Shown: piece by piece, positions 5,489-28,488 of the stretch
How the letters are laid out: each line of letters begins with the position of its first letter
Numbering within the stretch: position 1 is the first letter of the stretch
Assembly (NCBI GenBank): GCA_030041545.1
Contig: JASHNQ010000064.1
Location: forward strand, 1 to 46,822
DNA length: 46,822 nucleotides
Direction of reading: 5' to 3'
DNA from: a candidate division FCPU426 bacterium
GTDB taxonomy: Bacteria; Oederibacteriota; Muellerivitia; Muellerivitales; Muellerivitaceae
The notes under the pieces: generated by a model
What the model saw: only the letters and a program-made list of their open reading frames with translations
Database searches by the model: none
Told to the model about the DNA's origin: nothing
Translations under genes and position numbers: made by a program

Positions 5489-6304
5489 TTATAAAACCAA
5501 GCCAAGAAAGGCGTTTATTTTTTCAAAAGCGTCCCGGCGGATTCTTTCCATTTCTTGTTGGTTCACATTATCCTTTTCATAAGACTTTGCGACTTGTCCA
5601 GGGCCGACGTGCTCTATGGTTAAAAAGGCTTTTCTTATTTTTTCCAATCCTTCACGCACCAGTTTATTACTCTTGAAATCTTCAAACTCCTTGGCCAGGC
5701 CCTCAAATCCCCCTGGATAATTTGAGACGCAATAATAAACGTCATAGGCGTCTTTATCTTTAATACGGTCGGCCAAGGCCATACCCTTCATGACCATAAA
5801 GGAAACGATTGAAGCGACACGAATGTTCACCTCGTCCTTATCCCCACTTGGGAGAATACCCCGCACTGTTATATTCAAGGGATTCTCAAAAGCCAAGTCC
5901 GAGCCCCTTGTCTTCCGGGCCTTTAAGTTTTGTATCTTTTGATGCCGGTGGCCTTTTCCCGTCCCGGAATATTCCCCGGCCAGGAGATCCACAAAAACGG
6001 TTATTTCTCCAATGGATTTTTCGAACCGAAACTCCGTCTTTTTATCCTTAACATAACCGCTATTCAAAAGAAGCTTTTCAATCTTTTGGTAGCCGGCTTT
6101 ATGAAGGTGCTTGTGATCCAGCGCCAGGTCAACATCAGTGCTTCCAATATGATGCTCTTTGGCCTTTGGCAAAATAAAAGTGGGAACCCATCCCCCAACC
6201 AAAACGATGCTTTCCCGGTATTCTCCGAGCAAATGGCAGACCTCGATCAGGACCGAACGGGCGGCCGCGACAGCCTCTTCGCTATAATCGTATTGCTTTA
6301 CCAT
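5489..6304 (-). CDS. AbiEii-like nucleotidyltransferase toxin
   Basis: Predicted toxin of a type IV (AbiE-like) toxin-antitoxin pair, 271 aa, of the DNA polymerase beta-like nucleotidyltransferase fold. Visible motifs are GGW at residues 37-39, GSTDVDLALD at 54-63 supplying the metal-binding Asp-x-Asp, and DKDAYDVYYC near residue 185, the K/D-Y-D motif of the AbiEii group. AbiEii/MenT-type enzymes add nucleotides, in studied cases to tRNA acceptor ends, and so stop growth during phage infection. The start codon overlaps the end of the preceding gene by 7 bases, so toxin and putative antitoxin are co-transcribed and coupled. The length fits the family. The exact substrate cannot be told. Confidence 0.83.
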   Translation of the reverse strand: MVKQYDYSEEAVAAARSVLIEVCHLLGEYRESIVLVGGWVPTFILPKAKEHHIGSTDVDLALDHKHLHKAGYQKIEKLLLNSGYVKDKKTEFRFEKSIGEITVFVDLLAGEYSGTGKGHRHQKIQNLKARKTRGSDLAFENPLNITVRGILPSGDKDEVNIRVASIVSFMVMKGMALADRIKDKDAYDVYYCVSNYPGGFEGLAKEFEDFKSNKLVREGLEKIRKAFLTIEHVGPGQVAKSYEKDNVNQQEMERIRRDAFEKINAFLGLVL

Positions 6305-7383
6305 TGCTTTATAATAACCTCGTTGAACAGCGCTTCTGCCCCGTCTTTTCCGCGTCCGCCCATTGTGATTAAATCCAAATACAATTGAATCGAAGAGACG
6401 ATCGGGACGTTTTTAAAATATTGGCAATTATAAAAAACCCCTTCGTCATAGGGCTTGACGAGAAACACGTTGTCGCCGCTTTCCACCCGTTTCAAGCCCA
6501 ATCGCGGTATCCAAAATTCGACATCATCGACATAGAGGCTAACCGTATGGCTTCTGACATACGGGAAAATAAAGTTCGCTCCGGCGTAACCCGTCAGCGC
6601 GAAACGATTATTAAACCCAAGAACTTTCGTTCCAACGGAATTCCCGGCCAGAACATTCATTTGTTCCTCAAACGACTTAAGCGAATAAAAGGGCTCGATG
6701 AAATTATCCCGTATATAGCTGTAATGACTCACCCATTCCGTTAACAACTCCTTAGGTTCGGTTAACTTAATCCCTTCCTTGGAAACCGAAATCCATTCGC
6801 GGTAATCCAACAAATTCTTAACGTTGGATACCTGCCCCATGCTTACGGACGCTTCCTTGGAAAGTTCTTGAACCGTCCATGTTTTTTTAGGTTGGTTTAA
6901 GAGGACGCGCAAAACACGGGAAGATTTTGGAGAAAACAAGGTCCGCAAGTCCCGCCGTATATTAAACGGATTGGGAACGCCTTTATATTCGATAAAAACC
7001 TCATCGAACGCCAACCGGCAATTCCCCGCTAAATCCAGAACGCCGATATTGGCTTTCTGGCATATTTCAGCCGCCCTATCCGAAATATATGGCGCTACCA
7101 GGACACCGTAAGAATTGGAGTAGTTTTTAAGGTAGTCTTGAATTTGGTGGATTGCTCTCAACGCCTCTCGAGGTTGGCCATTGTTTTTAACTTCAAAGAG
7201 GATTGTTTTAGGCCCATTCGGCCTTCGGAGCCTGAGAACGAAGTCAGGCCCCAGGGTATTGCCATCTGCCCTTTTCAAGAGAATGTGCGTATCGGGGATG
7301 CTTTGAAAACGCTCGCCAATCACTTTTTCGGCGTTTTTAAGCAAATCATCTAGATTTAACATCGGATTTATTAGTTTCAGCAT
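6298..7383 (-). CDS. AbiEi-like antitoxin with nuclease-fold N-terminus and winged helix
   Basis: 361 aa, upstream and overlapping partner of the AbiEii-like gene. The N-terminal ~140 residues look like a PD-(D/E)xK nuclease fold (Asp47 in GPDFVLRL, EVK at 64-66 in ILFEVKN). Next comes a winged helix (about 160-205: WTVQELSKEASVSMGQVSN) and a C-terminal domain as in AbiEi family antitoxins. AbiEi proteins repress their own operon by binding inverted repeats, and such a repeat overlaps the promoter here (7371-7414). The first ATG at 7383 lies only about two bases from the predicted transcription start, so the mRNA may be leaderless. The in-frame ATG at 7362 is the alternative. Codon use is AT-rich compared with the host flank. 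Confidence 0.78.
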   Translation of the reverse strand: MLKLINPMLNLDDLLKNAEKVIGERFQSIPDTHILLKRADGNTLGPDFVLRLRRPNGPKTILFEVKNNGQPREALRAIHQIQDYLKNYSNSYGVLVAPYISDRAAEICQKANIGVLDLAGNCRLAFDEVFIEYKGVPNPFNIRRDLRTLFSPKSSRVLRVLLNQPKKTWTVQELSKEASVSMGQVSNVKNLLDYREWISVSKEGIKLTEPKELLTEWVSHYSYIRDNFIEPFYSLKSFEEQMNVLAGNSVGTKVLGFNNRFALTGYAGANFIFPYVRSHTVSLYVDDVEFWIPRLGLKRVESGDNVFLVKPYDEGVFYNCQYFKNVPIVSSIQLYLDLITMGGRGKDGAEALFNEVIIKQW

Positions 7384-7603: not shown

Positions 7604-7650
7604 AATGGCGGGGTTGACGGGGCTCGAACCCGCGACCTCCTGCGTGACAG
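7604..7650 (-). other. att core, distal copy: 3' half of tRNA-Asp
   Basis: These 47 bases are identical to 28442-28488. On the minus strand they run from the anticodon loop of tRNA-Asp(GTC) through the T-arm, acceptor and CCA end. Identity ends exactly at the anticodon stem, where the sequence turns into GGTCCG-N12-CGGACC, a small hairpin inside the element. It is not a functional tRNA. Confidence 0.93.
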
Positions 7651-8872: not shown

Positions 8873-9121
8873 CTACCTCCTAATGTCCCCAGCACCTGGC
8901 ATTGTATCAAAAGCCAAGGGAAGGGGTTTCTGGAAAACCCTCAGGAAAATGGAATGCCAAATCCTGGGGTGCCTGCCCACCTTCACGAAAGGAAGAATCC
9001 CCGTCTGCCGCCAGTAGCGGACGGTATTGGTCGGCACCTTGGCCAGCTCGGCCACCTGGCTATCCGACATCAGGTAATCCCGGCTCATATTCCTGCGGTC
9101 GCTTCTGCGGCGTTCCGTCAT
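8873..9121 (-). CDS. Excisionase/AlpA-like MerR-type HTH protein
   Basis: 82 aa small basic DNA-binding protein. Residues 17-50 (YLMSDSQVAELAKVPTNTVR, then YWRQTGILPFVKVGRHPRIW) are a MerR/Xis-type winged helix-turn-helix as in excisionases and AlpA. In integrative elements such proteins direct excision or control int. It starts inside the stop codon of the preceding ORF (ATGA overlap at 9118-9121) and ends two bases before int, which supports translational coupling with the integrase. The basic N-terminus (TERRRSDRRNMSRDY) could give a later start at the internal Met of MSRDY. Confidence 0.8.
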   Translation of the reverse strand: MTERRRSDRRNMSRDYLMSDSQVAELAKVPTNTVRYWRQTGILPFVKVGRHPRIWHSIFLRVFQKPLPLAFDTMPGAGDIRR

Positions 9122-9528
9122 GCCCTGCCTCCTTGCATATGGTTTGATAGATAAACATCCCCGAAGGGGACACCTTCGGGGAAAGGTGTGGAAAACCCCG
9201 CACCCAAAACCTGTTTCATTACCAACAGGTTGATCGGGGGGTTTTCCACGGTGTTGGTTTTGCCGTTGCCGTTGCCGTTGACTTTGACTTTCGCCTTAAT
9301 CCTTAAAAGACTTAAATCACTTACTTCCTTCACGCCCGCGCCCGCTCTGGTTTGGTTGTCCAAGAGGCCAGCCCCCACTACCGCTTTCCTGGTCATCATT
9401 ACTGATCCAGGGGGAGTGGGGGCTGGCGTCGCAGGACAACCAAACATCCCCCTTTCGCGGGCGTTTCCGCATTTTTCGGTGTGACTCTGTTTCACACCCC
9501 GGTTCACGTTTTTAAGGGTCCGGTTCAT
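9118..9528 (-). CDS. Possible small protein, 136 aa, over a highly structured DNA region
   Basis: I do not recognise this protein. Its ATG overlaps the stop of the replication-relaxation gene (ATGA at 9525-9528) and its stop overlaps the ATG of the excisionase-like gene (ATGA at 9118-9121). Two such overlaps favour a real, translationally coupled gene. Against this, the DNA beneath it is filled with four nested inverted repeats (9158-9498), so the protein reads as mirrored low-complexity segments (CPATPAPTPPGS, VKVNGNGNGK). It has no signal peptide or known domain. It may instead be a coupling reading frame across an oriT-like or RNA structure. Confidence 0.45.
   Translation of the reverse strand: MNRTLKNVNRGVKQSHTEKCGNARERGMFGCPATPAPTPPGSVMMTRKAVVGAGLLDNQTRAGAGVKEVSDLSLLRIKAKVKVNGNGNGKTNTVENPPINLLVMKQVLGAGFSTPFPEGVPFGDVYLSNHMQGGRA
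9158..9498. other. Four tandem inverted-repeat structures, candidate oriT or structured RNA
   Basis: Structure I is TCCCCGAAGG/CCTTCGGGGA at 9158-9167/9173-9182. Structure II is nested: GTGGAAAACCCC/GGGGTTTTCCAC (9188-9199/9238-9249) around AACCTGTT/AACAGGTT (9208-9215/9224-9231). Structure III is nested three deep: CGCCCGCG/CGCGGGCG (9333-9340/9456-9463), GTTTGGTTGTCC/GGACAACCAAAC (9350-9361/9434-9445) and GCCAGCCCCCACT/AGTGGGGGCTGGC (9367-9379/9415-9427). Structure IV is GGTGTGA/TCACACC (9478-9484/9492-9498). All stems are perfect. A triple GTTGCC-type hexamer repeat lies at about 9262-9280. The place, between the mobilization genes and xis/int, fits an oriT, a single-strand origin or a regulatory RNA. 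Which of these is unknown. Confidence 0.8.
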
Positions 9529-10433
9529 GCGGTCTCCTGGGCCGGTTGGTCCCCTGCCGGCGGGTCCGCCTTGACCGCCTTGAGGATGGGGTCCTTCACG
9601 AAGGGCAGATAGGCCCCGTCCAGGCGGACCCAAGGCACCCGGCTAAAGGGCAGGTGGGCCACCTTCTCGAAAAACGAAAAGGCCCAAAGGTCCCGGTGCC
9701 GGGGATCCCCCTTCAGGAAGGTTTCCAGGCCGTTCATCAGCCGGATGGCATGGGCCTTATCCCGGCTGACCACCAGCCGAAAGGCGGTGGGAAAGTCACG
9801 GGTCAGGTTCAGGATCATGGCGGCCATCTTGTCCCGGTTGTAGGGGGTGTGCTCGTACTCCAAGACGAAGGCGTAAACCCTGCCACCGATTCCGGCCTCA
9901 AAGAAACCGTCGGGGGTGCGCTGGTGGACCCGGTGAAGCTTTGCCCCGGCCAAGGGCCAACCCCGGCCCTCGTCCAGGGCCTTTTTCCAGTCCAGTTTCA
10001 AGCCGCAACGCATCTCGTAGTCCGAAAGCCAGGTCATCCCCGAAAGGCCGCCGTCCTCCTCGATCTGGATACGCATGGTCAAAACCCGCTTGTCATGCTC
10101 CCGCTCAAAGAGGTTGATATGGGGGGACCGGATTTCGGGTGAAATAAGGATTCGGCCTATCCCGGAGAGGTACCGGAGGGCCGGACGGGTCAGGCAGTAA
10201 AAAGCGTCCTCGTTGGGGAGGTTCCTAGCCTTGAACAGGTACCCCTTCTCCACCAAGGCCCTCAAGTGCCGACAGGCCGTCCAAAAGGCGTTTTGGGGGT
10301 AGAACTTCCGGTGGAAGAGCCGGGTGGTGATGAACTTGTTGGAATGGATATAGGCCAGGGTATCCACCCCCACAGGCTTTAAGGCCGGGGCTGGTTCGGG
10401 TTTGGGAAGGGTTGGCTCAAGCCGCATTTTCAT
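9525..10433 (-). CDS. Replication-relaxation family protein
   Basis: 302 aa. Residues 22-95 form a winged helix (DTLAYIHSNKFITTRLFHRK, LRALVEKGYLFKA), and the rest matches the replication-relaxation (Replic_Relax) pattern found with TraG-like proteins on plasmids and integrative elements. Conserved charged positions HDKRVLTMRIQIEE, RTPDGFFEAG and AFVLEYEHTPYNRDK suggest a PD-(D/E)xK-like nuclease core (P-D, then E-x-E). This is read by eye. The start overlaps the coupling-protein stop by 17 bases and has GGGGG directly upstream. As no standard relaxase is present, this protein is the best candidate for DNA processing at oriT. That role is inference. Confidence 0.75.
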   Translation of the reverse strand: MKMRLEPTLPKPEPAPALKPVGVDTLAYIHSNKFITTRLFHRKFYPQNAFWTACRHLRALVEKGYLFKARNLPNEDAFYCLTRPALRYLSGIGRILISPEIRSPHINLFEREHDKRVLTMRIQIEEDGGLSGMTWLSDYEMRCGLKLDWKKALDEGRGWPLAGAKLHRVHQRTPDGFFEAGIGGRVYAFVLEYEHTPYNRDKMAAMILNLTRDFPTAFRLVVSRDKAHAIRLMNGLETFLKGDPRHRDLWAFSFFEKVAHLPFSRVPWVRLDGAYLPFVKDPILKAVKADPPAGDQPAQETA

Positions 10434-12216
10434 CCCCCATTCCTTTCACCCGGTCCTTGCCTGGTTTGGAGCTGGGGCCTTCCGGGCTTGGGGTTGGTTC
10501 CGGGAGGGAGCTTTGGTTCTTCTCCTCCCTCCACTTCCTGTTTTTGATGTTCCACTGCGGGAGGTACTGGCCAAACGGCGTAGTGGCGGGTTTGAGGTTG
10601 GTTTGCAGGAGTTGGACTCCCCCTTCCCCCACTACCTTGACGATGGCCTGGCCTACTTTGAGTTCCTTGATCCGGTTGGGATGGAACCGGAACTTCTCGA
10701 CCGGGGGCTTGGAATAACCCAGGGCGCTTCCGTTGGCCGCGTAGCTTTCCACCTTGTAGTTGGTGTCCTGCTCGGTGCCGAATTGCCGGGCGAAGCTTTC
10801 CGCCGTGTCCGGGTCGTTCACCCGGAGCACGATCTTGTTGCTGGCGGTGTTCATGACCTGTTCAAGGAATTCCTGGGATACGCCCCTCAGGTCTCCCAGG
10901 GATTGGTGGGCCAAGAAGAGGTTCACCTGGGCCTCCCGGCACTTGTTGATGAAGTCGATGAACCGGGGATAGGCCAGGTTGTAGAACTCGTCCAGGAAGA
11001 CCCGGAAGGGTTTCTTCTTTAGTTCGGGGTTGTAACGGGCCGACAGCTTTTCGGCCATGTCCATCATGGCGAGGATGGAAATGCGCTTGGCGTCCTCCGG
11101 GTAACGGGCCGAGTCGGGGGAGAACAGGAGGATTTCACCGTAGTCCATGACCTGGTCCATGCGGATATCCGCCTCCCGCACGTTCAAGAGGTAAGACCAC
11201 TCGGAATTGCAGAACCGTTGGAGCTTGTTCACGAGGCCGGACAATTCGGCCCGACGGTCCTTGGGGGATTTGCCCATCCATTGGTCCCTGAAGTATTGCG
11301 CGTAATAGGTTCCCGGGTGCTTCGCACAAAGCCAGCCGATGGTCTTGAAGGTATCCGCTTCCTGGGTGGCCAAAAGAAGGTCTTGGAAGGTGATGGTCTT
11401 TATTTCCTTCTTCAGCAAGCCCACGAGGTTGTGCAGGAAGGCGTCGGCCAGTTCCACGTAATAGGGCTCGGTGTTCTTGTTGTCGTAATAGAGGGCCGTG
11501 AATACCCGGTTGGCGATGGCGTCCGCGTTGTTCCCATAAAGGGGGTTATAGCTGTGAGAGACTGAGGGTTCGGAAAGGTTGAAGTGGTAAATGAACCGGT
11601 CGCCTTTCATGCCGTAATAGGCGATATCCCTTTTCATGTTTGCTTTGACGTCGTAGATGAAGCATCCCAAGCCCTGCTTGATGGTTTGCTCCACAAGGGG
11701 CTTGATGACGAAGCTGGTTTTTCCGGTTCCGGTCCCGCCCACGATATGGACATTTTCATGGAGGGAGGAAGTTGGTATCTGGATGCGCCCCTTGGGGTCC
11801 AGGCTCAAGGGATATTCTCCCAAGTTCACTTTCTTTTTTTCAGCGGCCTTCCAGTAGAGGAAATACATGCCCATAAAGGCCAGGATAAAGACCATCGTGA
11901 AATAGGAGGCGTCGTATTCCCTGGCAACGGGGTCTATCAAGGCAATGGCCGATGATCCGCAAATGGCGATTTTGGTGATAAGGAAAATATTTTCGTTGGC
12001 CCGGTTGTAATAAAGGAGGGTGTAAGGAATGACAAAAACCCAAATGCCCATCCCTAAATAATGCTCCGCCTCAAAATCCGGGCTGGGCAGGTAATTGCTG
12101 AGCATGGCGTCGAACCCGATAAATGGGTGCACGATGTTGAGGATGAGGAGCAAATAGGGGGGAGAGACCAACAAAAGGATAATCTGGTTGATACTGCTCT
12201 TCGCTTCTTTCGACAT
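10417..12216 (-). CDS. VirD4/TraG-like type IV coupling protein
   Basis: 599 aa inner-membrane ATPase that would deliver the nicked element DNA to a conjugation channel. The N-terminus has four hydrophobic segments (about residues 10-32, 53-70, 77-96 and 104-122). Walker A is GGTGTGKTS at 160-168 and Walker B lies in FRVFLDEFYNL near 410. The C-terminal part has the TraG/TraM-recognition pattern (NLFLAHQSLGDLRGVS, TASNKIVLRVNDPDTAESFA). The last 30 residues are Pro-rich and acidic. Length fits the family. It lies downstream of the RHH gene and overlaps the replication-relaxation gene, forming one mobility operon. No other T4SS gene is present in the window. Confidence 0.9.
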   Translation of the reverse strand: MSKEAKSSINQIILLLVSPPYLLLILNIVHPFIGFDAMLSNYLPSPDFEAEHYLGMGIWVFVIPYTLLYYNRANENIFLITKIAICGSSAIALIDPVAREYDASYFTMVFILAFMGMYFLYWKAAEKKKVNLGEYPLSLDPKGRIQIPTSSLHENVHIVGGTGTGKTSFVIKPLVEQTIKQGLGCFIYDVKANMKRDIAYYGMKGDRFIYHFNLSEPSVSHSYNPLYGNNADAIANRVFTALYYDNKNTEPYYVELADAFLHNLVGLLKKEIKTITFQDLLLATQEADTFKTIGWLCAKHPGTYYAQYFRDQWMGKSPKDRRAELSGLVNKLQRFCNSEWSYLLNVREADIRMDQVMDYGEILLFSPDSARYPEDAKRISILAMMDMAEKLSARYNPELKKKPFRVFLDEFYNLAYPRFIDFINKCREAQVNLFLAHQSLGDLRGVSQEFLEQVMNTASNKIVLRVNDPDTAESFARQFGTEQDTNYKVESYAANGSALGYSKPPVEKFRFHPNRIKELKVGQAIVKVVGEGGVQLLQTNLKPATTPFGQYLPQWNIKNRKWREEKNQSSLPEPTPSPEGPSSKPGKDRVKGMGDENAA

Positions 12217-12253: not shown

Positions 12254-12277
12254 AGCCTGGCGGGTCACCGCCAGGCT
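12254..12277 (-). other. Perfect 10-bp hairpin between RHH and coupling-protein genes
   Basis: AGCCTGGCGG (12254-12263), GTCA loop, CCGCCAGGCT (12268-12277). The stem reaches into the stop codon of the RHH gene. No T-run follows on the minus strand, so it is more likely an mRNA-processing or attenuation structure that sets the ratio of RHH to coupling protein than a full terminator. Confidence 0.6.
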
Positions 12278-12518
12278 ATTCCCTGGTGGGCTCCTTTTTA
12301 GGGTCGGCTTTCCTTCTTTTACCCGGCGGGTAGAAGTAAGCCGCGAGGGCATACCGAATAAGGTCGGCCCTCTTAATCTTCGGGTCCTTCAGCTTTTCGA
12401 ACCGCGCCTTTTCATCCATGGCTTCCAGCATTTCCTGGGTGACATGGACCATGAGCCTTATGCCACCTTTTCCTTCGAGTATTGGACGTCCCCGGCGCGG
12501 TTTGTTTTTCATGGACAT
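12276..12518 (-). CDS. Ribbon-helix-helix DNA-binding protein
   Basis: 80 aa from the chosen start (ATG 12518), which has AAGGAGGAA eight bases upstream. A longer frame starting at 12554 lacks this support. After a basic arm (KNKPRRGRPILEGKG) the core IRLMVHVTQEMLEAMDEKAR, then RADLIRYALAAYF, is a MetJ/Arc-type ribbon-helix-helix. Such proteins at the head of mobilization operons act as relaxosome accessory factors or autorepressors. A TGACGTT inverted repeat lies just upstream (12541-12577) as a possible operator. The tail is very basic. Confidence 0.75.
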   Translation of the reverse strand: MSMKNKPRRGRPILEGKGGIRLMVHVTQEMLEAMDEKARFEKLKDPKIKRADLIRYALAAYFYPPGKRRKADPKKEPTRE

Positions 12519-12540
12519 ATCTATATTCCTCCTTGCAAAA

Positions 12541-12577
12541 AACGTCAAAAACAATCAACCAATTAAGGTGTGACGTT
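12541..12577 (-). promoter_or_regulatory. AACGTCA/TGACGTT inverted repeat upstream of the mobility operon
   Basis: AACGTCA (12541-12547) and TGACGTT (12571-12577) form a perfect 7-bp inverted repeat in the AT-rich promoter region of the RHH gene. It is a candidate RHH operator. No clear -35/-10 pair could be fixed. The spacer up to 12679 has no gene. Confidence 0.45.
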
Positions 12578-12679: not shown

Positions 12680-15600
12680 TCAGGCTGGTTTTTTTGCTGT
12701 GTTCTTACACTTGGGATATTTTGGACAACCCCAAAACAATCCCCATCTGCCTTTTCTCTCAACCATCGGCAATTGATGAATTTGGCAAATTGGGACGCCT
12801 TCTGAATTAGTTTCCTTTTTTTGTTTTCGTATTTTTTTTACTTGGTCTTTTTGTTTATTGATTTCCGATTCGGTTTTGGGCGGCTTTCCTGGTTTATGGT
12901 TTCCAATAAGGCAGTGTTTCCAAATCCCAAAACGTCCCATATCTGTCCAATACCATGCGCAAGGATCATCACAGAACTCGCATTTTTCGAGTTTGTTTTC
13001 TCCAAGCTTTCCAATATTCCGATCAATTTTAAGGAAATGAATTACTTGTTCTGCTGTTTCTTTACCTTTGAATCTCCTCATTATTTCGTGGCTGTCTTTT
13101 TGAGAAAGGATATTAAGACTGCCTTCCCACAATATTTCCCTATCAATGATCGCCAGTTTCCTATGTTGGAGTCCGAAGAAAGGCAAAACAACAATTCCCA
13201 TTTCAACGAATTTATCGATCTCTTTTTCTGCTTGATAACGCATTCCGGTTGTATGTTCTTTGGTCATCCTAGTAATTAAAATAATTCTTATACCTTTTTT
13301 TAAAAGATGTTCAAAAACCGGCAAGAAGGTTTTGGTCCGTTCTGTGGTTATGTATGGGCTATCAATAATCACCTCTTTTTTCGCCAATAAAAGATCGTTA
13401 ATAAACGTTTTGTAAAAGTCTTTTTGGTCGTAAAGTTCAGAATCTTTAGCTTCGGTTTTTAGTCTCTCAGGATCAAATATTTTGGAAAGCCATTTCTCCG
13501 AAGATTCGGTCACATTATATTTTTCTAGGATTTCACTTGTCGTATGGGTTGGGTGCTTATTTATGTCGCAGTACCCAATAAACTTTTTAACCAAAGAACT
13601 TGGGCTATGTTCTTTTTCAACCCTGTTCTTATCAACAATCATGATTAATTTTTGTTTCGCTCTGGAAAAGGCAACATTAACCAGTTTTGAATCGTCACCA
13701 CCCTCTTTATCATCGTCAAGTAATTTGTTTCGGTTGCCCGTTGTTGTATCAAATATTATTAATTCTCGCTCATACCCTTGGAATCGATGCACGGTATCGA
13801 CCATCACGTTTTTTTCAATGTTTTGATCTTTAACCATTCTGCGGATTAAGTTTGTCTGAGCCCTAAAGGGAGAGATGATCCCAATTTGATCGTAACCACT
13901 TTCAATGGCCTTTTGAGCTAATCGCAGTGAAAGAATTGCGTGAAATAAATTGTAATAAGAGCCGGAATCGGTTTGGACAGGGTAGGTTTTATTGTTACTG
14001 GTGTCATATATGCCAATATGTGCTTTTGGAAGGGGCTCTTTTTCCAAAAGCTCCACCCCGATTTTCTCCGTCGAAATATCAGAATCCAATGCAAACTTTC
14101 GGCTGTTCCTTCCATATACCAGGTAATTAACTACACTGGCAATATCAGGGTGCATACGATATTGGATTTTTAGTTGTTCAAGCCATTCGGGTTTTATTCC
14201 GGTTTCTACGGATCGAACAATTTCAACACGTTCAAAAATCTCTTTTTTTAACCATTGATTAACAAGCCTTTCCTCTTTTTCTACCTCCTCCTTGGATTTA
14301 GACGATGGATCCACTTTATGCTTTGCTATAGGTGGAAGCTGGTAAAAGTCTCCAACAATAACAACTTTATTTTTTGCTAAACCTGAAGCGCACCATAATG
14401 CTGGCAATGGTGCCATAGATGCCTCATCAACTATTACACAATCGTACTCTCTACTCGTTACTGGTTTTGAACTGTAACTTTTGGTCAATGTTGTAGCAAT
14501 TACATTAGCCCCCTTAATTAATTCCGCAGAAATTTCATTTAATTGTTTTTGTAATTCCGCCCGTTGGGTTCTCAAAGCTGAAAGACCTGCTTTTATCTTT
14601 TCCAGTTCTTCGACAAGTTCCTGTTTTTTATTTAGGTCCAAATTATTAAAATTATTATTAATGTGTTCCACATACCCGTTAATTTCTTCCCGAATTCCAT
14701 TCTTGGTATTTTCCAAACCAGCTAACTTATTTTCGTTTTCGCTTATTTCTTTATTGGCTTTTACTCTGGAAATGGTCAATTGATCAATATTCAAAGAAGT
14801 AAAAATTCTTTTAAACATTCCCATTTGATTATAGGTAGTTATTTTCTCCTCAACTTCAAAGAGCCATTTTCTTGAGTCAAAAACTTTTCGTTTTGCTTCC
14901 TCGATGGCCTTCAAAACTATGGAAAGTTTATTTTCCTTTTCATTTTTCGCTTTTATAAATCTCTCATATTCAACAAATGCCTTTAATTGAAATTCTATTT
15001 GCAACACACGACCATCAATGGCCGACAATTCGTTTTCTACCGTTTTTAATTTTTCCCGAATGGATTTACCGACTATCTCCTCAACGGCTTTAAGATCAAC
15101 CAAAGGATATTCGCTTTTCAAATTTCTATCTTGAATCTCACCTATTCTTAATATTTTTCCTTCCAGATAATGAGGCGACTTATTGAGTTGGTCTAATAAC
15201 TTGAGTAAAGCGCCATCCGTTGCAACGTTCGTATGTGACAAAAGTAAAACGCTTAGCTTTTTTTCCAGGAGAGCTTCGATAATGCAAGCAATTGTTTTTG
15301 TCTTGCCGGTTCCAGGGGGACCCCAAATAAAGGTCACTTCATTTCGAATTACCTTCTTTACCGCCCCAAGTTGGGACTCATTCAATGAAAAGAAATTACC
15401 ATTTGGCAATTCGTCATTGGATTCAGAGATCGTGGGCTTTATCCGAAAAGTTTTTTCCGATAGATCGGTTAATTTCGATTCACCTGTATCTACTGTTTTC
15501 AGTTTTTCCATTAATAATTTAAGCAGATGGTAATTAGAAACGATTAGTCTTGCTTCGGGAATATCCGCTCCAATGAATTTGTCTAATTCAAGTTGGATAA

Positions 15601-15844
15601 AATCATCAGCTAAAGCTACCGCTCTCCCGTTCGCGCTCACATCTCTTATTCGAATCTCAACTTCACTGTCAATCTCCAATGATTGGAACGCAGACAATGA
15701 AAACTGATAAACGAAAATTTCTCCTACACTTTCAATAAATGATCCATTTTTAAGAATTGCTTGCGAGCTTCCTGATTTTTGTAAGTAGGCAATATTTGCT
15801 TCCAATGCGCCTAACATTTCTTTGATTATTTCGTTGGATGTCAT
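12680..15844 (-). CDS. SF1 helicase-PLD nuclease-zinc ribbon fusion, type II Mokosh-like (MkoC)
   Basis: 1054 aa predicted anti-phage effector. After ~150 residues comes a UPF1-like (COG1112) helicase: Walker A GPPGTGKT at 175-182, DEAS in CVIVDEASMAPLPALW near 475, a long coiled segment (about 270-440), VHRFQGYERELIIFD and NVAFSRAKQKL as the later helicase motifs. Then a phospholipase-D domain (about 810-930) with a full HKD signature, HRKLAIID followed by EGSLN, near 894-910. The C-terminus has a CEFC...C cluster (about 955) and a topoisomerase-like zinc ribbon (CQIH, then WGCPKYPKCKNT, 1020-1050). Helicase plus PLD in one chain is the layout of type II Mokosh. The terminal zinc ribbon is an added feature. 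AAGGG precedes the ATG. AT-rich. Confidence 0.85.
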   Translation of the reverse strand: MTSNEIIKEMLGALEANIAYLQKSGSSQAILKNGSFIESVGEIFVYQFSLSAFQSLEIDSEVEIRIRDVSANGRAVALADDFIQLELDKFIGADIPEARLIVSNYHLLKLLMEKLKTVDTGESKLTDLSEKTFRIKPTISESNDELPNGNFFSLNESQLGAVKKVIRNEVTFIWGPPGTGKTKTIACIIEALLEKKLSVLLLSHTNVATDGALLKLLDQLNKSPHYLEGKILRIGEIQDRNLKSEYPLVDLKAVEEIVGKSIREKLKTVENELSAIDGRVLQIEFQLKAFVEYERFIKAKNEKENKLSIVLKAIEEAKRKVFDSRKWLFEVEEKITTYNQMGMFKRIFTSLNIDQLTISRVKANKEISENENKLAGLENTKNGIREEINGYVEHINNNFNNLDLNKKQELVEELEKIKAGLSALRTQRAELQKQLNEISAELIKGANVIATTLTKSYSSKPVTSREYDCVIVDEASMAPLPALWCASGLAKNKVVIVGDFYQLPPIAKHKVDPSSKSKEEVEKEERLVNQWLKKEIFERVEIVRSVETGIKPEWLEQLKIQYRMHPDIASVVNYLVYGRNSRKFALDSDISTEKIGVELLEKEPLPKAHIGIYDTSNNKTYPVQTDSGSYYNLFHAILSLRLAQKAIESGYDQIGIISPFRAQTNLIRRMVKDQNIEKNVMVDTVHRFQGYERELIIFDTTTGNRNKLLDDDKEGGDDSKLVNVAFSRAKQKLIMIVDKNRVEKEHSPSSLVKKFIGYCDINKHPTHTTSEILEKYNVTESSEKWLSKIFDPERLKTEAKDSELYDQKDFYKTFINDLLLAKKEVIIDSPYITTERTKTFLPVFEHLLKKGIRIILITRMTKEHTTGMRYQAEKEIDKFVEMGIVVLPFFGLQHRKLAIIDREILWEGSLNILSQKDSHEIMRRFKGKETAEQVIHFLKIDRNIGKLGENKLEKCEFCDDPCAWYWTDMGRFGIWKHCLIGNHKPGKPPKTESEINKQKDQVKKIRKQKKETNSEGVPICQIHQLPMVERKGRWGLFWGCPKYPKCKNTAKKPA

Positions 15845-16009
15845 CTGTGCCCTTAATTATTCGCTGAATTGATTACCATTATTGCACAGAGAAGAAGACA
15901 GGATTTTAGTGGTCTTAAATTATTGATTTAGACAAATGATGTAATCTGGATTTATAAGTCATGGGGTGGGGTGCAGGGGAGGGAACACCCTACCCTGCCG
16001 GACGCAAAA

Positions 16010-16031
16010 AGGCCCCTCTAGAAAGGGGCCT
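16010..16031 (-). terminator. Rho-independent terminator after the RadC-like gene
   Basis: AGGCCCCT (16010-16017) pairs with AGGGGCCT (16024-16031) around a 6-nt loop. On the minus strand the stem is followed by TTTTTG. It lies 7-28 bases after the RadC-like stop codon. On the plus strand a GGGTTTTTA tail also follows. The gap between it and the helicase gene at 15844 has no gene. Confidence 0.85.
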
Positions 16032-16037
16032 GGGTTT

Positions 16038-16526
16038 TTAGGACAAAAGCCCTGCTTGGCGGAAGGAAAAATAACCTTCATGGGTCACGATCAAATGGTC
16101 ATGGACCGTGATGCCCATAGCCCGTGCGGCGGTCAAAATCTGGCGGGTTAACTGCTTATCCCCTTCTGAAGGTTCCAGGCTTCCGGCTGGGTGGTTGTGG
16201 GAAAAGATTATGCCCGTTGCGTCCAATTCCAGGGCCTTCTTCAAGACCTCGCGTGGATAAACGGCGGTATGGTCAACGGTTCCTTCCTGGTTCAAAACCA
16301 CGTCTAAAACGTGGTTCCGGTGGTCAACATACATGGTCACAAAAGCCTCGTTTCGCTTCCCGCCGATATACTGCTTGAAATAGGCGGCCACGTCCTCAGG
16401 GCTTCCCATGACCGGCCCCCGCTGGTAGTCCGCCCTGGCTTCCGCCCAAGAAACCGGCGGCACGGTTGGCGGCGGCAACTCCCTCACATTGAACTTCAAC
16501 CCGTCCTTCTTCGCTTGGTCACTCAT
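16038..16526 (-). CDS. RadC family JAB-domain protein
   Basis: 162 aa JAB/MPN (JAMM) metalloprotease-fold protein of the RadC (YsxA, DUF2466) group. The metal site reads HNHPAGSLEPSEGD (about residues 110-123, H-x-H...S...D) with the upstream acidic residue in the region of EVLKKALELDATG. It lacks the N-terminal helix-hairpin-helix of chromosomal RadC, as do the short copies carried by integrative elements and plasmids. Their biochemical role is not established; a link to DNA processing or anti-restriction on mobile elements is often assumed. It is GC-rich like the mobility genes although it sits inside the AT-rich cargo, so it may have been part of the backbone before cargo entered. Confidence 0.88.
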   Translation of the reverse strand: MSDQAKKDGLKFNVRELPPPTVPPVSWAEARADYQRGPVMGSPEDVAAYFKQYIGGKRNEAFVTMYVDHRNHVLDVVLNQEGTVDHTAVYPREVLKKALELDATGIIFSHNHPAGSLEPSEGDKQLTRQILTAARAMGITVHDHLIVTHEGYFSFRQAGLLS

Positions 16527-16559
16527 GGCCTTGCTCCTTTAACAGGGAGCAGCCTCCGG

Positions 16560-16791
16560 GGCCGCCCCTCGAAGAGGAAAGGGGCGGCCATGGAGGAGAG
16601 GCCAAATAGGAAGCGCTAGCAGACTATTGGCCCAATAACGTTTTCGAGTTTTCCGACGGAGTGCGATAGCGAAGCGACAGCATCCGAGGCCTGGTGCCCC
16701 GGACACGGTTTATGGGTCCGAGGGCAAGCCACTGGTGGCTAAGGCTATTCGGGAAATGAGAAAACAAATTGAAGGTTTTGAAAAGTTTTAA
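16560..16791. other. Gene-free spacer with GC-rich hairpin and an open-frame remnant
   Basis: Upstream of the RadC-like gene, GGCCGCCCCT (16560-16569) and AGGGGCGGCC (16580-16589) form a perfect 10-bp stem. Further on, a plus-strand frame open from 16639 to the TAA at 16789-16791 ends in LVAKAIREMRKQIEGFEKF. It has no usual start codon, so it may be the tail of a lost gene. Composition changes from GC-rich to AT-rich at about 16760, marking a cargo junction. Confidence 0.4.
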
Positions 16792-18617
16792 CTTAAATTT
16801 TTCAGGAGTGATTTTTTCACTTCTAAAAGAAATTCTGAGGGCCCATTAAATTGACGCCCATATTTGCCATCAATCCAACCGGAATAAGTTAAATGAATCT
16901 CGCGCTTTGCACGAGTTAACCCGACATAGAACAACCTTCTCGGTTCCTTTTTCGTTTCAATAGTTTTTTCATAATAAGAGGGAATTTTCCCCTGATCCAA
17001 ACCCATCATTATTACCACCTCAAACTCCATGCCTTTAGCGCTATGCAGAGTCATTAAATTCAGATGGTCTTTATATCCTGTTTGGCCTGCGAAAGCGGCA
17101 ATATTGAACCCCTGTAAAACCCCATTGGCCATAGAAGCTGTAAATAATTTTTTAAATTCTTCTTGTTCGTATCCCAAAGTGGTTTCACACGCAAACGTCT
17201 TCTCCAAACATTCACTGTTAAATTTTTGAAGCCAACTATTTAACGAGGCCGATGGATTGCGGTTTGAAAATAAAAACTTGATAAAATCTTTTCTTTTTTC
17301 CATAACTAAATTTTTGGTTTTAACAGTTTGATTAAAAGATAACCATCTTTTCGTCAATTCCGTCAATTTAGGCTCACCTTTTTCCCATCCTCCGCTACAC
17401 CATAAGCCGCAGTCTTCCACCCACCGAGTCAAAGGAGTTTTGCTATACGGCCCTCCCTTATCAATCCTTATATGTTTCATTCCCAATTTTAGAACTTGTT
17501 TAGCAATTACATCGCCGTCGTACTTAGTTCGATATAACACGGCTATATCACCAAAATTAAACGTTGGATTATTTTTCAGAGTCTCAGGAATGATCTTGCC
17601 ACAAATCAGTTCCACTTGTTCCTGAAGACCATTTTGGCATTCATAAATTTCAATCGTTCCTTCATGTTCTTTTTTGGACACATAATTACGCTTTTCTCCA
17701 AGAACAGTTTCCGAAGCTCCAATAATGGTTTGTCCCGAACGATAGTTAAATCTCAACTTAATTGCTTCAACACCTTCTTTTAGTGATAAATCTCTCAGTA
17801 GTTCCGGCTTTGCCCCAGCAAAGCCATAAATAGATTGGTCTGCATCTCCCACGGCCAATAGTCTTATTTTTGCCTCAAAACATAATTTCAGAACTATTTC
17901 ATGAAGACCTTGACCTAAGTCTTGGTACTCATCAATCACCAAGATTGGAAATCGAGCCTTTAAGGCTCGCCTAATCCATTCATGATTACTTACCAAGTCA
18001 AAGCCGAATTGAACCATATCGTCAAAATCAATGAGTCCTTTTCGGTGGAGTGACTGTTCGTAAAATTCAACGAGTTCACAAAGGTCGCCATCATCGGTTT
18101 TCCAAGCGGCGGAAGTTCGATCCAAGTGAACGCGTCGATAATATTCAAATTTAGTCCGCCAACTGTTTGGATCAACGTCAGCGCTGATCACTTTTGCCAC
18201 CGAATTATTAAATAGTTTATTTTGTTCAGCCGGAGTTACAACTTGGATGGGTGAGGCTAATCTAAGATCAGCCGCTTGAGCGAACGGTAAGATAATATTG
18301 TTTAAACAAAAGGAATGAACTGTACCAATAAATATATTTTTTCCATATTCAACCCCTAATCCTTGAAGCTTTTTTTCTAGCGCGCGAGCACATTCCGAAT
18401 TATACGTAATGCACGCAATCCCTCGCGGAAACTTCACATCCTCTTTCAACATCTTGGCCATTTTGAGCGTTAACACTTTTGTTTTACCGCTCCCCGGCCC
18501 AGCCAAAACAACACAATTGCCTTTAGAATTAAAGACATCCCACTGTTCAGGGTTTTCCTTTAATTCTTCCGATTCGGTCAAATATCTCAATTCTAAATCA
18601 CTGTTGTTTAACAACAT
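16788..18617 (-). CDS. gajB: Gabija GajB, UvrD/PcrA-like helicase
   Basis: 609 aa from ATG 18617, which overlaps the end of gajA by 20 bases. A TTG start at 18659 would add 14 residues. It is an SF1A helicase-like NTPase: Walker A GPGSGKT at 40-46, Walker B DEYQD in LVIDEYQDLGQG, motif III in VGDADQSIYGFAGA, and motifs V-VI in TLHSAKGMEFEVVIMMGLDQ and FYVGLTRAKREIHL. In Gabija, GajB senses DNA ends and nucleotide loss and activates the GajA nuclease, which then destroys phage DNA. The direct pairing with an OLD-family nuclease gene upstream is what identifies it. It is longer than the ~500 aa of the first described GajB. AT-rich. Confidence 0.88.
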   Translation of the reverse strand: MLLNNSDLELRYLTESEELKENPEQWDVFNSKGNCVVLAGPGSGKTKVLTLKMAKMLKEDVKFPRGIACITYNSECARALEKKLQGLGVEYGKNIFIGTVHSFCLNNIILPFAQAADLRLASPIQVVTPAEQNKLFNNSVAKVISADVDPNSWRTKFEYYRRVHLDRTSAAWKTDDGDLCELVEFYEQSLHRKGLIDFDDMVQFGFDLVSNHEWIRRALKARFPILVIDEYQDLGQGLHEIVLKLCFEAKIRLLAVGDADQSIYGFAGAKPELLRDLSLKEGVEAIKLRFNYRSGQTIIGASETVLGEKRNYVSKKEHEGTIEIYECQNGLQEQVELICGKIIPETLKNNPTFNFGDIAVLYRTKYDGDVIAKQVLKLGMKHIRIDKGGPYSKTPLTRWVEDCGLWCSGGWEKGEPKLTELTKRWLSFNQTVKTKNLVMEKRKDFIKFLFSNRNPSASLNSWLQKFNSECLEKTFACETTLGYEQEEFKKLFTASMANGVLQGFNIAAFAGQTGYKDHLNLMTLHSAKGMEFEVVIMMGLDQGKIPSYYEKTIETKKEPRRLFYVGLTRAKREIHLTYSGWIDGKYGRQFNGPSEFLLEVKKSLLKNLS

Positions 18618-20400
18618 GCTTAATGGCCCTTTTAATATAAACGGGACAATCCTTCTCAACTAAATTCGCAGCTAATCTTTGTGCCAGTCGCCCCTTCCCA
18701 ATGGTTTTAATATCATTTAAAAATTGTTTAGCATCAAGGCTCCCTGGAGAACGACCGAATTCACGAGCCCTCTCTTTAATGGCATCGCTTTCTGTTAACT
18801 CAATAATTGTTTTGCAAATTTCTTTGTGGTGTCCGCTCTTAAATAAATCGACCTCAAAAGTATATTTATTAATAAACAAGCCGTTCTTTTTTGCTAACTT
18901 CAATTTATCGGGTTTAGAAAGTGCGCTCGCATTCGGTTGAATTGTAGATAACAGTTTTATCACTCTATCTTGTCCAAAACTCCCACCATCATGAGGATCA
19001 AAATCAGTGATAACTGCAAAAGGAATCTTTAACCCAGATTCGCCAATTAATTTGATATATGGCAAAAAATTTACTCCCGAAACTGAACAAACGGTAATAC
19101 CAAGCTCATCAAAATCATAACCAATCGCTCTGCCAAGAGCAGGCAGAAGGAACATTTCTGCGTCACCTTCTACAAGGAGAATTCCTTTTGAAAATAGTAT
19201 TTCTCCCCTCGTAACATCAATGTATCGTTCTAAATCAGCTATATCATTTTGGTTGAGGTCCAAATTTGCTGTGGAAATCACCTCTGTACTCCGCTCATCT
19301 AAATTCTTTTTCAGAAGTATTAAAGATTTGAGAGGAGAAACACTGACGATATGCGGAGAATGCGTAGTTAATAAAATCGTTGTTTTCTCTTTGCCTTGAC
19401 CGGTCGAAGGCAAATGATCTTTCGGGTTCAAAAACTCACGATAAATTAATCGCTGTAAATGTGGATGAAGGTGGGCTTCGGGCTCTTCGATACCAAGAAA
19501 TGTGTGGTCTCTGTTGCCCTGCTCAGATAATTCCAAAGCCTCCAATGATTTCAGAGTTAAGTAAAGTAAGTTCGAAGATCCCAAACTAGCTTCATTTAAA
19601 TTTCTCTTACCAGAATCAATAAAAAGTCTAAGAGCCTTTAATAAACGATTTGGAACTGTTGGCGAAAATCCAAAAGACATATCAAATGTATTTGATTTCC
19701 CGATAATATCTTCCAGCTTCGACGAGATAGTTGTTTCAAGGTTTTTAATTTCATCAATTTTTGCAACAGCTAATGTTGTTTTGGATATTTTTTTAGAAAT
19801 CTTCTCTAGCTTGTCTTGGTCAATTTTGCTTGCCGCTTCTTCCAATAAATATCTCAAAGGAGATTTTTTCCAATTAGACAAACTATCTTCGGTGTCACGC
19901 AATGCAGGCAAAACATCTATCGGAATGCGAGACCTGAATTCATATCCGCTAATATGTTTCTCGGCGTTTTTTCCACCAAAGAAGAAAAATTCATAGTCGG
20001 CATCCTTTTTTGGCCCGCCAGTTAGCCCCTCAATGGGTTGAAACACAAAAGTTAATTTTGACCGAATTGGATTTTTATCAACGATATAGTCCGCGAGGAT
20101 TGCAAACAAATTTTCATCACCTTCAAAGTCAGTAAGCTCAATAGAAATTATTATTCGGTCATCTTTTTTTAACGGTCTTTTTAATCCATCCCAAAAATCT
20201 TCATTTTTCAATTGCCTCGCGCTTTCTGGCAAAGTTGGATCAAGTATTAATCTGAGGGCATATAAAAGATTTGTTTTACCAATTTTATTCTCGCCAACAA
20301 AAACAGCATGATCGCTTAAATAAAAATCAGCGGCATGAAAGTTTCGAAAGTTTTGCAGTTGAATTCTAGAAATCCTCAATTTAATTTCCTCCTGCGCCAT
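18598..20400 (-). CDS. gajA: Gabija GajA, OLD-family ATPase-TOPRIM nuclease
   Basis: Up to 600 aa. The N-terminal ABC-type ATPase has Walker A GENKIGKT at 36-43 and FLGIEEPEAHLHPHLQR near residue 310. The C-terminal TOPRIM nuclease starts near 410 (ILLVEGDAEMFLLPALG) with the D-x-D of VITDFDPHDGG. This is the two-domain plan of GajA, which nicks DNA when nucleotides are depleted and assembles with GajB. Start choice: ATG 20400 has no ribosome binding site, while AGGAGGA within the first codons would serve a TTG at 20379, giving MRISRIQLQNFRNF, closer to the family's usual N-terminus. The gene is divergent from higB, and the shared 188-bp spacer holds a strong operator promoter. Confidence 0.88.
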   Translation of the reverse strand: MAQEEIKLRISRIQLQNFRNFHAADFYLSDHAVFVGENKIGKTNLLYALRLILDPTLPESARQLKNEDFWDGLKRPLKKDDRIIISIELTDFEGDENLFAILADYIVDKNPIRSKLTFVFQPIEGLTGGPKKDADYEFFFFGGKNAEKHISGYEFRSRIPIDVLPALRDTEDSLSNWKKSPLRYLLEEAASKIDQDKLEKISKKISKTTLAVAKIDEIKNLETTISSKLEDIIGKSNTFDMSFGFSPTVPNRLLKALRLFIDSGKRNLNEASLGSSNLLYLTLKSLEALELSEQGNRDHTFLGIEEPEAHLHPHLQRLIYREFLNPKDHLPSTGQGKEKTTILLTTHSPHIVSVSPLKSLILLKKNLDERSTEVISTANLDLNQNDIADLERYIDVTRGEILFSKGILLVEGDAEMFLLPALGRAIGYDFDELGITVCSVSGVNFLPYIKLIGESGLKIPFAVITDFDPHDGGSFGQDRVIKLLSTIQPNASALSKPDKLKLAKKNGLFINKYTFEVDLFKSGHHKEICKTIIELTESDAIKERAREFGRSPGSLDAKQFLNDIKTIGKGRLAQRLAANLVEKDCPVYIKRAIKHVVKQQ

Positions 20401-20506
20401 ACAACAATGTGAGGTCCGACGAGGGTTTTTCCGTTATCCACGGGAAGATGTAAAGCCATACTTGTCCCCTCTCTGTTTCAGAATGACTTTGAAAGATATT
20501 CGTACC

Positions 20507-20552
20507 TTGACACAAATAGATACTATCATTATACTTCCCATTATGGGAAGTA
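20507..20552 (+). promoter_or_regulatory. Sigma-70 promoter with palindromic operator for the HigBA-like operon
   Basis: TTGACA (20507-20512), exactly 17 bp, and TATACT (20530-20535) form a near-perfect promoter facing higB. A palindrome, TACTTCCCAT-T-ATGGGAAGTA (20532-20552), overlaps the -10 box. It is the likely binding site of the HigA-like HTH for autorepression. Its effect on the divergent gajA gene is unknown. Confidence 0.82.
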
Positions 20553-20588
20553 AATACAACGTACAAAGATCAACGGCTATAAACATCA

Positions 20589-20876
20589 ATGAAACTTATA
20601 GGCAAACCCGTCCTTCATGACTTCAAGGCAAAGCACGCTGATTCCCGATCAGACCTTGAGGCATTGGAAGCAGAAATCGACGAAGCTCAATGGAATACAC
20701 CTCAAGAGTTAAGCGCTAGATATCCAAAAGCAAGTCGATTGCGGAACCAACTGGTCGTTTTTGATGTCTGTTGGAATAAATACCGGGTACTGACCAAGGT
20801 TAACTACAAGAATAAGACCGTGCTGGTACTGAGGATAGGGACGCATAAAGAATACAATAGGTGGGATTTGGGTTAA
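20589..20876 (+). CDS. higB: HigB family mRNA interferase toxin
   Basis: 95 aa RelE-superfamily toxin expected to cut mRNA on the ribosome. The family pattern is clear: KPVLHDFKAKHADSRSDLEA at the start, FDVCWNKYRVLTKVNYKNKT in the middle and VLRIGTHKEYNRW at the end, with the basic and aromatic residues of HigB catalysis. As usual for hig loci the toxin gene comes first, followed after five bases by the antitoxin gene. The strong promoter with palindromic operator upstream supports autoregulation. It is in AT-rich cargo, divergent from Gabija. Confidence 0.9.
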   Translation: MKLIGKPVLHDFKAKHADSRSDLEALEAEIDEAQWNTPQELSARYPKASRLRNQLVVFDVCWNKYRVLTKVNYKNKTVLVLRIGTHKEYNRWDLG

Positions 20877-20881
20877 AAATT

Positions 20882-22111
20882 ATGAAAAACATCAAAGTCA
20901 TTAAAACCGACCAAGACTACAAAGAGGCCCTCAAATTCGTTGAGGCGCTTATGGATCAAGATCCAAATCCTGATTCAACCGAAGGAGAACAACTTAGTCT
21001 CCTCACAACCCTTATCCAGGATTACGAGGCTCGTGCTTTCCCCCAGTCTTTACCGACGCCTCTTGAAGCAATTAAATTCAGAATGGAACAAGCAGACCTC
21101 AAACCGGCCGATTTGGTTCCATATTTGGGAAGTCCAAGCAGAGTCTCAGAAATTCTTTCTGGCAAACGCCCGTTAACACTTGAAATGATTCGTGCGTTAG
21201 AAGCCGGACTTGGTATTCCTGCAAAAGTTTTAATTCAGAAAAATGAGGCCAATCCAAATACAAAATATGAACGCTGGGATACGCGTCTCGTGAAGTTAAT
21301 GGAAACCCGAAATTATTTCGGAAAGAAAACATTGGAACGGAATAGTAAAACCGAGCTATTGGAATCCTTCTTTGGGTCGCTCGGCTCTAGTTTGGAACCG
21401 GCGGCTTTACTTCGTAAAACAAGTTATCGATCAACACTGCTCACAGATAAAGATGCACTCTTGGCGTGGGAAATCCGAATTCTCCAAAAAGCGGATGAAA
21501 TAAAAGCGCCAGTGAAATACAAATCTGGTGTTATCGATCTTTCTTTTATGCGCAACCTGATGAAGTACAGCTCGGAACAAAAAGGACCGGTCAAAGCTAT
21601 AGAGCATTTAAAGAAGGTTGGCGTAAAGCTTATTGTTGAACCGCATCTTCCAAAAACACATCTTGATGGAGCAACCATCTTGACCGAAAGAGACAACCCG
21701 GTCATAGGATTAACATTAAGACATGATCGGCTAGATAATTTTTGGTTTACTCTGATGCATGAGATTTCCCATGTGGTTCGACATTTCGACAGCGGCTTCG
21801 ATTCCTTTTTCGATGAAAAGCTTCAAGAAAAGAATGGGATCGAGTTCAGTGCAGAAGAAAAGGAAAAAGAGGCTGATGAACTTGCCGAAGAAGCAATTTT
21901 GCCAAGGGAAATATGGGAAATCAGTCCCGCAAAAGTCATACCTTCCGCTATGGCTGCTCAAAGCTTGGCTAATGAATTGGGTGTGCATGTGGCAGTAATC
22001 GCAGGAATTATTAGATTCAAACACGCCAATTATTACTACCTAAACAAAATAGTTAATGATGAAACAGCACATGTCCGCCCGCTGTTTCCTGAGGTATTTC
22101 CGAGCAAATGA
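20882..22111 (+). CDS. HigA-like HTH antitoxin fused to ImmA/IrrE metallopeptidase
   Basis: 409 aa from ATG 20882, five bases after the higB stop. Residues 1-110 are a HigA-type XRE helix-turn-helix antitoxin (TPLEAIKFRMEQADLKPADL, GSPSRVSEILSGKRPLTLEM). The C-terminal half is an ImmA/IrrE (COG2856) zinc peptidase with FTLMHEISHVVRHF near residue 300 and EKEADELAEEAILP as the downstream Glu ligand region. ImmA-type peptidases cleave repressors or antitoxins, so one chain joins the antitoxin to a likely stress- or phage-sensing protease. The next gene overlaps its stop by four bases (ATGA), showing that the beta-family gene belongs to the same operon. Confidence 0.88.
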   Translation: MKNIKVIKTDQDYKEALKFVEALMDQDPNPDSTEGEQLSLLTTLIQDYEARAFPQSLPTPLEAIKFRMEQADLKPADLVPYLGSPSRVSEILSGKRPLTLEMIRALEAGLGIPAKVLIQKNEANPNTKYERWDTRLVKLMETRNYFGKKTLERNSKTELLESFFGSLGSSLEPAALLRKTSYRSTLLTDKDALLAWEIRILQKADEIKAPVKYKSGVIDLSFMRNLMKYSSEQKGPVKAIEHLKKVGVKLIVEPHLPKTHLDGATILTERDNPVIGLTLRHDRLDNFWFTLMHEISHVVRHFDSGFDSFFDEKLQEKNGIEFSAEEKEKEADELAEEAILPREIWEISPAKVIPSAMAAQSLANELGVHVAVIAGIIRFKHANYYYLNKIVNDETAHVRPLFPEVFPSK

Positions 22112-23797: not shown

Positions 23798-23862
23798 TTG
23801 TTGAGATTTTTCTCCATTAAAATTATGAGTCCATCTTAGCACAAGTTCATCAATGTAAGGGG

Positions 23863-23942: not shown

Positions 23943-23949
23943 CCAAATC

Positions 23950-24084: not shown

Positions 24085-24145
24085 AGACACCTCTTTCAAA
24101 GTGACGTTTGCAAAGATGACCGTTTAAAGGTCAAAATTGAAAACG

Positions 24146-25984: not shown

Positions 25985-26006
25985 AAAGGGCCATAGAGGA
26001 TTTCCT

Positions 26007-28441: not shown

Positions 28442-28488
28442 AATGGCGGGGTTGACGGGGCTCGAACCCGCGACCTCCTGCGTGACAG
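28442..28488 (-). other. att core, tRNA-side copy
   Basis: 47 bases identical to 7604-7650. They cover the anticodon loop to the CCA end of the intact tRNA-Asp plus two bases. Integration here leaves a working tRNA because the element supplies the 3' half. Confidence 0.93.

Follow-up and report, generated by a model that had tools for sequence, protein, structure and literature searches.

The 46,822-nucleotide stretch analysed here (the window) was placed in the candidate phylum FCPU426 by a genome search over a phylum set of about 45 species, and relatives found by protein pattern bear the name candidate division FCPU426. The window holds a 20.8-kb island inserted in tRNA-Asp, with genes that read leftward in the order coupling protein, RR (a relaxase-like gene), structured region, Xis and Int, such that the structured region lies between the relaxase-like gene and xis-int (Table 1). 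Possessing an integrase, att repeats in a tRNA gene and mobilization genes, and lacking mating-channel genes, the island has the make-up of an integrative and mobilizable element (IME). VirB4 was not detectable in the window's own genome, so no helper is present there now. The candidate ribbon-helix-helix gene has syntenic homologues in two of the related elements described below (L018 and L019).

The island cargo (12680-27762) forms a defence island. A second AbiE-like pair lies just beyond the left att repeat, at 5489-7383.

Table 1. Features of the island and its structured region, in window coordinates.
Feature	Position	Strand	Remarks
att repeat, left end of island	7604..7650	.	3' part of tRNA-Asp; ~47-bp exact direct repeat with 28442-28488
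Tyrosine integrase (Int), 372 aa	7752..8870	-	PF00589, E 9e-32
Excisionase-like helix-turn-helix protein (Xis), 82 aa	8873..9121	-	PF12728, MerR_1; TIGR01764 'excise' below its cut-off
10-bp stem	9158-9167/9173-9182	.	perfect pairing in the window
12-bp stem enclosing 8-bp stem	9188-9199/9238-9249 around 9208-9215/9224-9231	.	perfect
H1, triple-nested imperfect hairpin (9+12+13 bp plus apical stem)	9331..9466	+	proposed oriT core
H1 stems, outer to inner	9332-9340/9456-9464 (9 bp) > 9350-9361/9434-9445 (12 bp) > 9367-9379/9415-9427 (13 bp)
H4, 7-bp inverted site pair	9478..9498 (arms 9478-9484/9492-9498)	+	proposed protein-binding sites; strong covariation
Direct repeat TTCAC-7-TTCAC, period 12	9491..9507	+	shares an H4 arm; possible analogue of pAD1-type 12-bp bind-site repeats
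RR, proposed relaxase	9525..10433	-	N-terminal winged helix + nuclease-like domain; invariant D175, E192, E194
VirD4/TraG-type coupling protein (T4CP)	10417..12216	-	PF12696, PF10412, PF02534
Possible ribbon-helix-helix protein	12276..12554	-	weak match only, PF01402 E 0.11
Mokosh-like helicase-PLD	12680-15844		defence cargo
Gabija GajB/GajA	16788-20400		defence cargo
PD-Lambda-2 B and C	20861-23235		defence cargo
AbiEii/AbiEi	26007-27762		defence cargo
att repeat, right end, inside intact tRNA-Asp gene	28442..28488	.	direct repeat; tRNA-Asp at 28444-28521

Folding and covariation of the hairpins

A sequence-only reading of the window had picked out four perfect inverted repeats at 9158-9498, with stems of 10, 12+8, a nested triple and 7 bp. 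All of these stems are present and perfect; within the nested triple, the 12- and 13-bp stems are as first described, whereas the outermost stem measures 9 bp and not 8. The impression that such packing goes beyond chance was borne out. Folded as single-stranded DNA, positions 9150-9520 reach -90.3 kcal/mol, compared with -52.8 +/- 4.2 in dinucleotide shuffles (z = -8.9, 0/100), while the opposite strand folded as RNA gives z = -5.6. In coverage by perfect inverted-repeat arms (94 bases), the region tops 930 segments of 350 bp drawn from the 46.8-kb window.

Comparison of DNA and proteins revealed nine further elements in the same bacterial family, making ten with the window, all of which carry Int, whole or partial. 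Five of these (L014, L017, L018, L019 and L020) possess Int, Xis, the hairpins, RR and the coupling protein, and four (L015, L016, L021 and L022) possess Int, whole or partial, together with H1, with RR and the coupling protein absent near by. Searching the 45 genomes of the phylum with an H1 covariance model returned these ten elements and no other strong match, and the strong matches, found in 4 of the 45 genomes, all lie upstream of this Int.

Across these elements the four hairpins did not behave as one unit. The 10-bp stem is imperfectly paired or lost in several relatives and lies outside the conserved unit. The arms of the 12+8 stem (GTGGAAAACCCC/GGGGTTTTCCAC) hardly vary among the six elements that bear a relaxase (the window, L014 and L017-L020), its loop varies in length and reading frame, and it found no match in the relaxase-less elements; it is a separate conserved element of the RR-bearing islands, perhaps an operator or a second protein site.

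H1 and H4, by comparison, keep their pairing through compensatory change, which is what the sequence-only reading had asked of homologous elements. For H1, 97.6% of the cells are paired when 34 pairs are scored across ten sequences, with double changes at 11 pairs (26 cells), a level that none of 500 shuffles reached, and sliding the partner by one base drops the pairing to about half. H4 differs in sequence in nearly every element and is retained wherever it is readable: its pairing stands at 92.6% against 67.6% in shuffled sequences, and its covariation score at 0.69 against 0.23 (0/500), both over nine elements. These comparisons, made at the level of sequence, show that the structure of H1 and H4 is under selection.

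The relaxase-like gene and its inverted repeats

RR had no family match in Pfam, NCBIfam or PHROG, and the sequence profile of PF13814 (Replic_Relax) gave none at E values up to 10. Its AF2 model, built from a 14-sequence alignment (pLDDT 83.7) in place of a poor six-sequence run (pLDDT 52), predicts a winged helix followed by a mixed alpha-beta domain, and over the full length of the protein Foldseek returned Gp146 of Bacillus phage G as the best viral match (E 2.6e-11). Gp146 is itself a strong PF13814 match (E 4e-25) and carries the PHROG annotation 'replication initiation by nicking'. The Replic_Relax label that the gene had received therefore fails by sequence HMM and holds by fold, as the modelled RR has the Replic_Relax fold without a match to the sequence family. 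The searched viral contigs held no relative of RR. Gp146 (L121 10060-10884), as a phage Replic_Relax protein with the fold of RR, may make the use of such nickases by phages of interest.

Residues D175, F178, F189, E192 and E194 are invariant across the 14 RRs, and their counterparts in TraX are D152, F155, F169, E170 and E172, giving a similar D..E-x-E pattern. D175, E192 and E194 are candidate catalytic residues of PD-(D/E)XK type: a PDB match of RR to FokI was not significant, and the spacing of D175/E192/E194 resembles that of D152/E170/E172 in TraX; direct profile comparison of RR with TraX aligned the winged helix alone, and weakly. The TraX of pTEF1 belongs to Replic_Relax, and pTEF1 is typed MOBC by PLSDB.

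A profile search with RR yielded 18 matches in 7 of the 45 genomes, with homologues at 26-41% identity in T4CP-RR order and three cases of VirB4 on the same contig. The coupling protein is next to or near RR at all six close loci and at nearly all distant ones, with none seen at L091 in the short stretch covered. Looking beside Replic_Relax genes for the same structure had been suggested from the sequence alone, and this structure was indeed found beside Replic_Relax-fold relaxases in distant relatives: 10 of the 13 assessable loci have, within 300 bp downstream of the RR stop, an inverted repeat whose arms measure 12 bp or more, against a background of 0.034 per locus (P 4.5e-13; by lineage 4/6, P 1.8e-5). 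The remaining three (L089, L093 and L094) have no such repeat adjoining RR. At two other loci, L090 (2289-2340) and L095 (16670-16721), 25-bp perfect palindromes after RR have assembly NN at their centre, as if the assembler had stopped at the hairpin, and their loops are uncertain.

In two genomes (G006 and G004), the repeat after RR is of a second type, H2 (GGCGAACCCC...), which goes with a second RR clade. All four members of this clade have H2 on the same contig, adjacent to RR in two and 18-29 kb off in the other two, which are among L089, L093 and L094. The H2 model also detects several H1s (E 1e-6 to 6e-11), so the two hairpins are built alike. Both are followed by a trio of short sites, two in inverted orientation and a third that repeats directly, which vary in concert from one element to the next; H2 examples are AGTTCC/GGAACT/AGTTCC, ATTTCC/GGAAAT/ATTTCC and ACTTCC/GGAAGT/ACTTCC. 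We infer from these sequences that each hairpin class would be cognate to one relaxase clade. In two contigs (C50 and C34; L119 and L120), ArdC antirestriction genes are found within a few kb of H2, and umuDC is near H2 in C81 and C61. Genes of the ArdC and umuDC type occur in the leading regions of conjugative elements.

These two hairpin classes bear on whether H1 could be a single-strand origin, or single-stranded DNA promoter, at which synthesis of the second strand starts after transfer while the nick lies at another place. Sites of this type occur in mobile elements, and a long imperfect hairpin with strand asymmetry that all mobile elements of the family retain would suit one. However, were H1 a general single-strand origin, neither two hairpin classes matched to two relaxase clades nor the co-varying repeat trio would be expected, and we regard this as a very improbable account of H1, although single-strand origin and oriT functions could coexist in it.

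The position of H1 relative to int, always close by, and the fact that Int is the sole protein common to all H1 elements raise a further idea, in which H1 is an accessory integrase site (an attP arm or a folded recombination site). The crossover, however, sits in the tRNA genes, 1.7 kb away and on the other side of int, on which ground an attP function was rejected, and H1-type repeats are found beside RR genes with no match to this Int in the stretches examined, leaving the idea scarcely credible.

Several small elements carry the hairpins and lack the transfer genes. Two in genome G000 are bounded by att repeats, one of 5.3 kb (C69, 6115-11433) and one of 5.0 kb (C49, 47033-52100); in each, H1 adjoins int, H2 lies some way off, and there are toxin-antitoxin genes and cargo, with relaxase and coupling protein absent, such that they would class as oriT-only integrative elements if H1 and H2 are taken as oriT. 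On other contigs, G000 also has RR genes of both clades (C106, C114; C50), and these ~5-kb elements apparently hitch rides on two different transfer enzymes. In the C49 element the integrase is internally deleted (L016 7568-7987, without about residues 109-322), so that this element probably cannot now move by itself. G001 holds a similar small element (C119) with H1 only, bordered on the right by the 3' end of a tRNA-Asp. Another contig of G001 (C73; L118 8287-13119) holds an Int element with H2 and IrrE/DUF4411 genes, with no H1 or relaxase near by, whose ends were not found.

Strand, overlapping frame and transcript alternatives

The sequence-only reading had noted a 136-aa frame running across the hairpins and overlapping its neighbours at both ends, and had supposed that protein and structure may coexist. 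The frame exists: this leader frame (window 9118-9525) begins at the RR stop in all six RR elements, and because the anchor distances agree modulo 3, translation through the structured region is possible. A conserved protein is unlikely, and coexistence of protein and structure is not supported. Counts by codon position are distributed 169:161:189 in the leader frame, with no bias of the kind seen in RR (338:240:609), so that the frame as a conserved protein was rejected on this test; three relatives lack one loop base, a 1-nt deletion that breaks the frame; and in the inner stem, a pair that covaries from C-G to A-T alters the encoded amino acids of the overlapping frame on both sides.

Evaluating the two strands revealed that wobble pairs in H1 number 20 G.T versus 1 A.C on the plus strand (10 versus 1 without one invariant pair), a count somewhat biased because the structure had been predicted on that strand. 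The plus strand also folds better than the minus strand in all ten elements. This favoured strand is opposite to the operon transcript. A scan for sigma-70-like promoters upstream of H1 found none, and Rfam, at gathering and relaxed thresholds, returned only tRNA and microRNA look-alikes at chance level.

These observations bear on two ways in which H1 might act as RNA. As a leader or attenuator in the minus-strand operon transcript, it would control translation of xis and int with help from the leader frame, which is consistent with its position upstream of xis or int in 10/10 elements, with the constant start and phase of the frame and with a minus strand that folds well too (z -5.6). The absence of codon-position bias, the frame-breaking loop deletion and the plus-strand wobbles count against this, as do the inverted repeats that follow RR in distant relatives and the distance of H2 from int in the small elements, and we consider such a leader improbable. 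H1 may have some part in int control, given that it is always upstream of int across the elements, a point that counts against the oriT reading.

If H1 were instead a plus-strand RNA, serving either to terminate transcription in both directions or as antisense to the mobility transcript, the better folding of that strand would be accounted for, as would the GC stems with short runs of T after them (e.g., the terminator-like site at 9457-9470). The missing promoter and Rfam family speak against it, the conserved stem sequence and the H4 site trio indicate recognition by protein, and the pairing with relaxase clades would be left unexplained, so that a plus-strand RNA seems distinctly improbable. 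Between the functions first proposed for the region, an oriT is well supported for the H1 and H4 hairpins, whereas a structured RNA in the mobility transcript is the weaker choice because the wobbles favour the strand opposite to that transcript and no promoter was found.

A putative oriT and the elements that may share it

We consider it likely that H1 together with the H4 repeat sites (9478-9507) is a MOBC-type oriT of an IME and that the small elements are dual-oriT hitchers. This reading draws on evidence within the sequences: the nested structure and the covariation within it, its adjacency to the relaxase-like gene and the rule that holds at RR loci, the predicted Replic_Relax fold, and att-bounded elements that keep H1 without a relaxase. 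Under such a mechanism, Int and Xis would excise the element from tRNA-Asp, RR would bind the repeat sites through its winged helix and nick one strand inside the nested inverted repeat or next to it, and the element's own VirD4-type coupling protein would pass that strand to a mating channel supplied by a conjugative element in the same cell. The small elements, with int and toxin-antitoxin genes or cargo, would keep H1 and often H2 in place of a relaxase and be moved in trans.

The closest known arrangement is oriT2/TraX of the pAD1 type, in which a relaxase with a winged helix and a D..E-x-E motif similarly adjoins a VirD4/TraG coupling protein, and a nested inverted repeat beside the relaxase gene is followed by period-12 repeats. 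In pTEF1, an 18-bp inverted repeat between TraX and the coupling protein encloses a 25-bp one, and five 12-bp direct repeats follow (19658-19729), a nested layout that also appears in four related plasmids, one of which, from Carnobacterium, differs in sequence. According to PMC12857230, TraX binds five direct repeats 70-120 bp from nic, and PMC2262945 reports nic inside an inverted repeat for CloDF13-type elements. The two systems differ in that no DNA sequence homology is detectable and protein homology consists of the fold and a weak winged-helix alignment. Here, moreover, the repeat lies between relaxase and xis, the array is weaker, with two or three short copies (two in the window, compared with five in pTEF1), and the element is integrative and belongs to an uncultured phylum.

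Other mobilization systems share parts of this organization. The MobB-MobC sets of CloDF13, HPI-ECOR31 and pMET1 likewise pair a coupling protein with a MOBC relaxase and have ArdC near by, as does H2, but their order is oriT-mobB-mobC and no sequence relation was shown. Streptococcal IMEs are integrative and carry their own VirD4 coupling protein with a MobC relaxase (PMC5704250), a likeness in gene content that spans different phyla. Small oriT-only elements are also known, such as relaxase-less islands of the MGIVflInd1 type and staphylococcal oriT mimics, and a staphylococcal plasmid may carry two or three oriT subtypes (PMC5704250, PMC8136818); the hitchers described here differ as ~5-kb integrative elements with two hairpins matching two clades of a Replic_Relax-fold relaxase.

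More tentatively, and with the balance somewhat against it, FCPU426 might have its own conjugation network, built on a divergent family of Replic_Relax-fold relaxases and on long-hairpin oriTs, with the hairpin possibly recognised as a folded single strand and the co-varying trio setting specificity. Such a network, held with the same reserve, would possess three tiers, namely conjugative elements bearing VirB4, defence islands with relaxase and coupling protein, and ~5-kb integrative hitchers with two different hairpin oriTs, such that either relaxase clade could move them.

MOBC is poorly studied, and a recent review (PMC12857230) reports that no covalent intermediate has been seen and treats DNA recruitment, transfer and religation as open. 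The relaxases of the present set come naturally aligned with matching hairpins, and as two hairpin classes accompany two relaxase clades and some hitchers hold both classes, specificity becomes testable by swaps. If the oriT reading is true, MOBC-type mobilization would extend to an uncultured phylum whose relaxase escapes sequence profiles, and a route would be seen along which defence islands (Gabija and others) spread.
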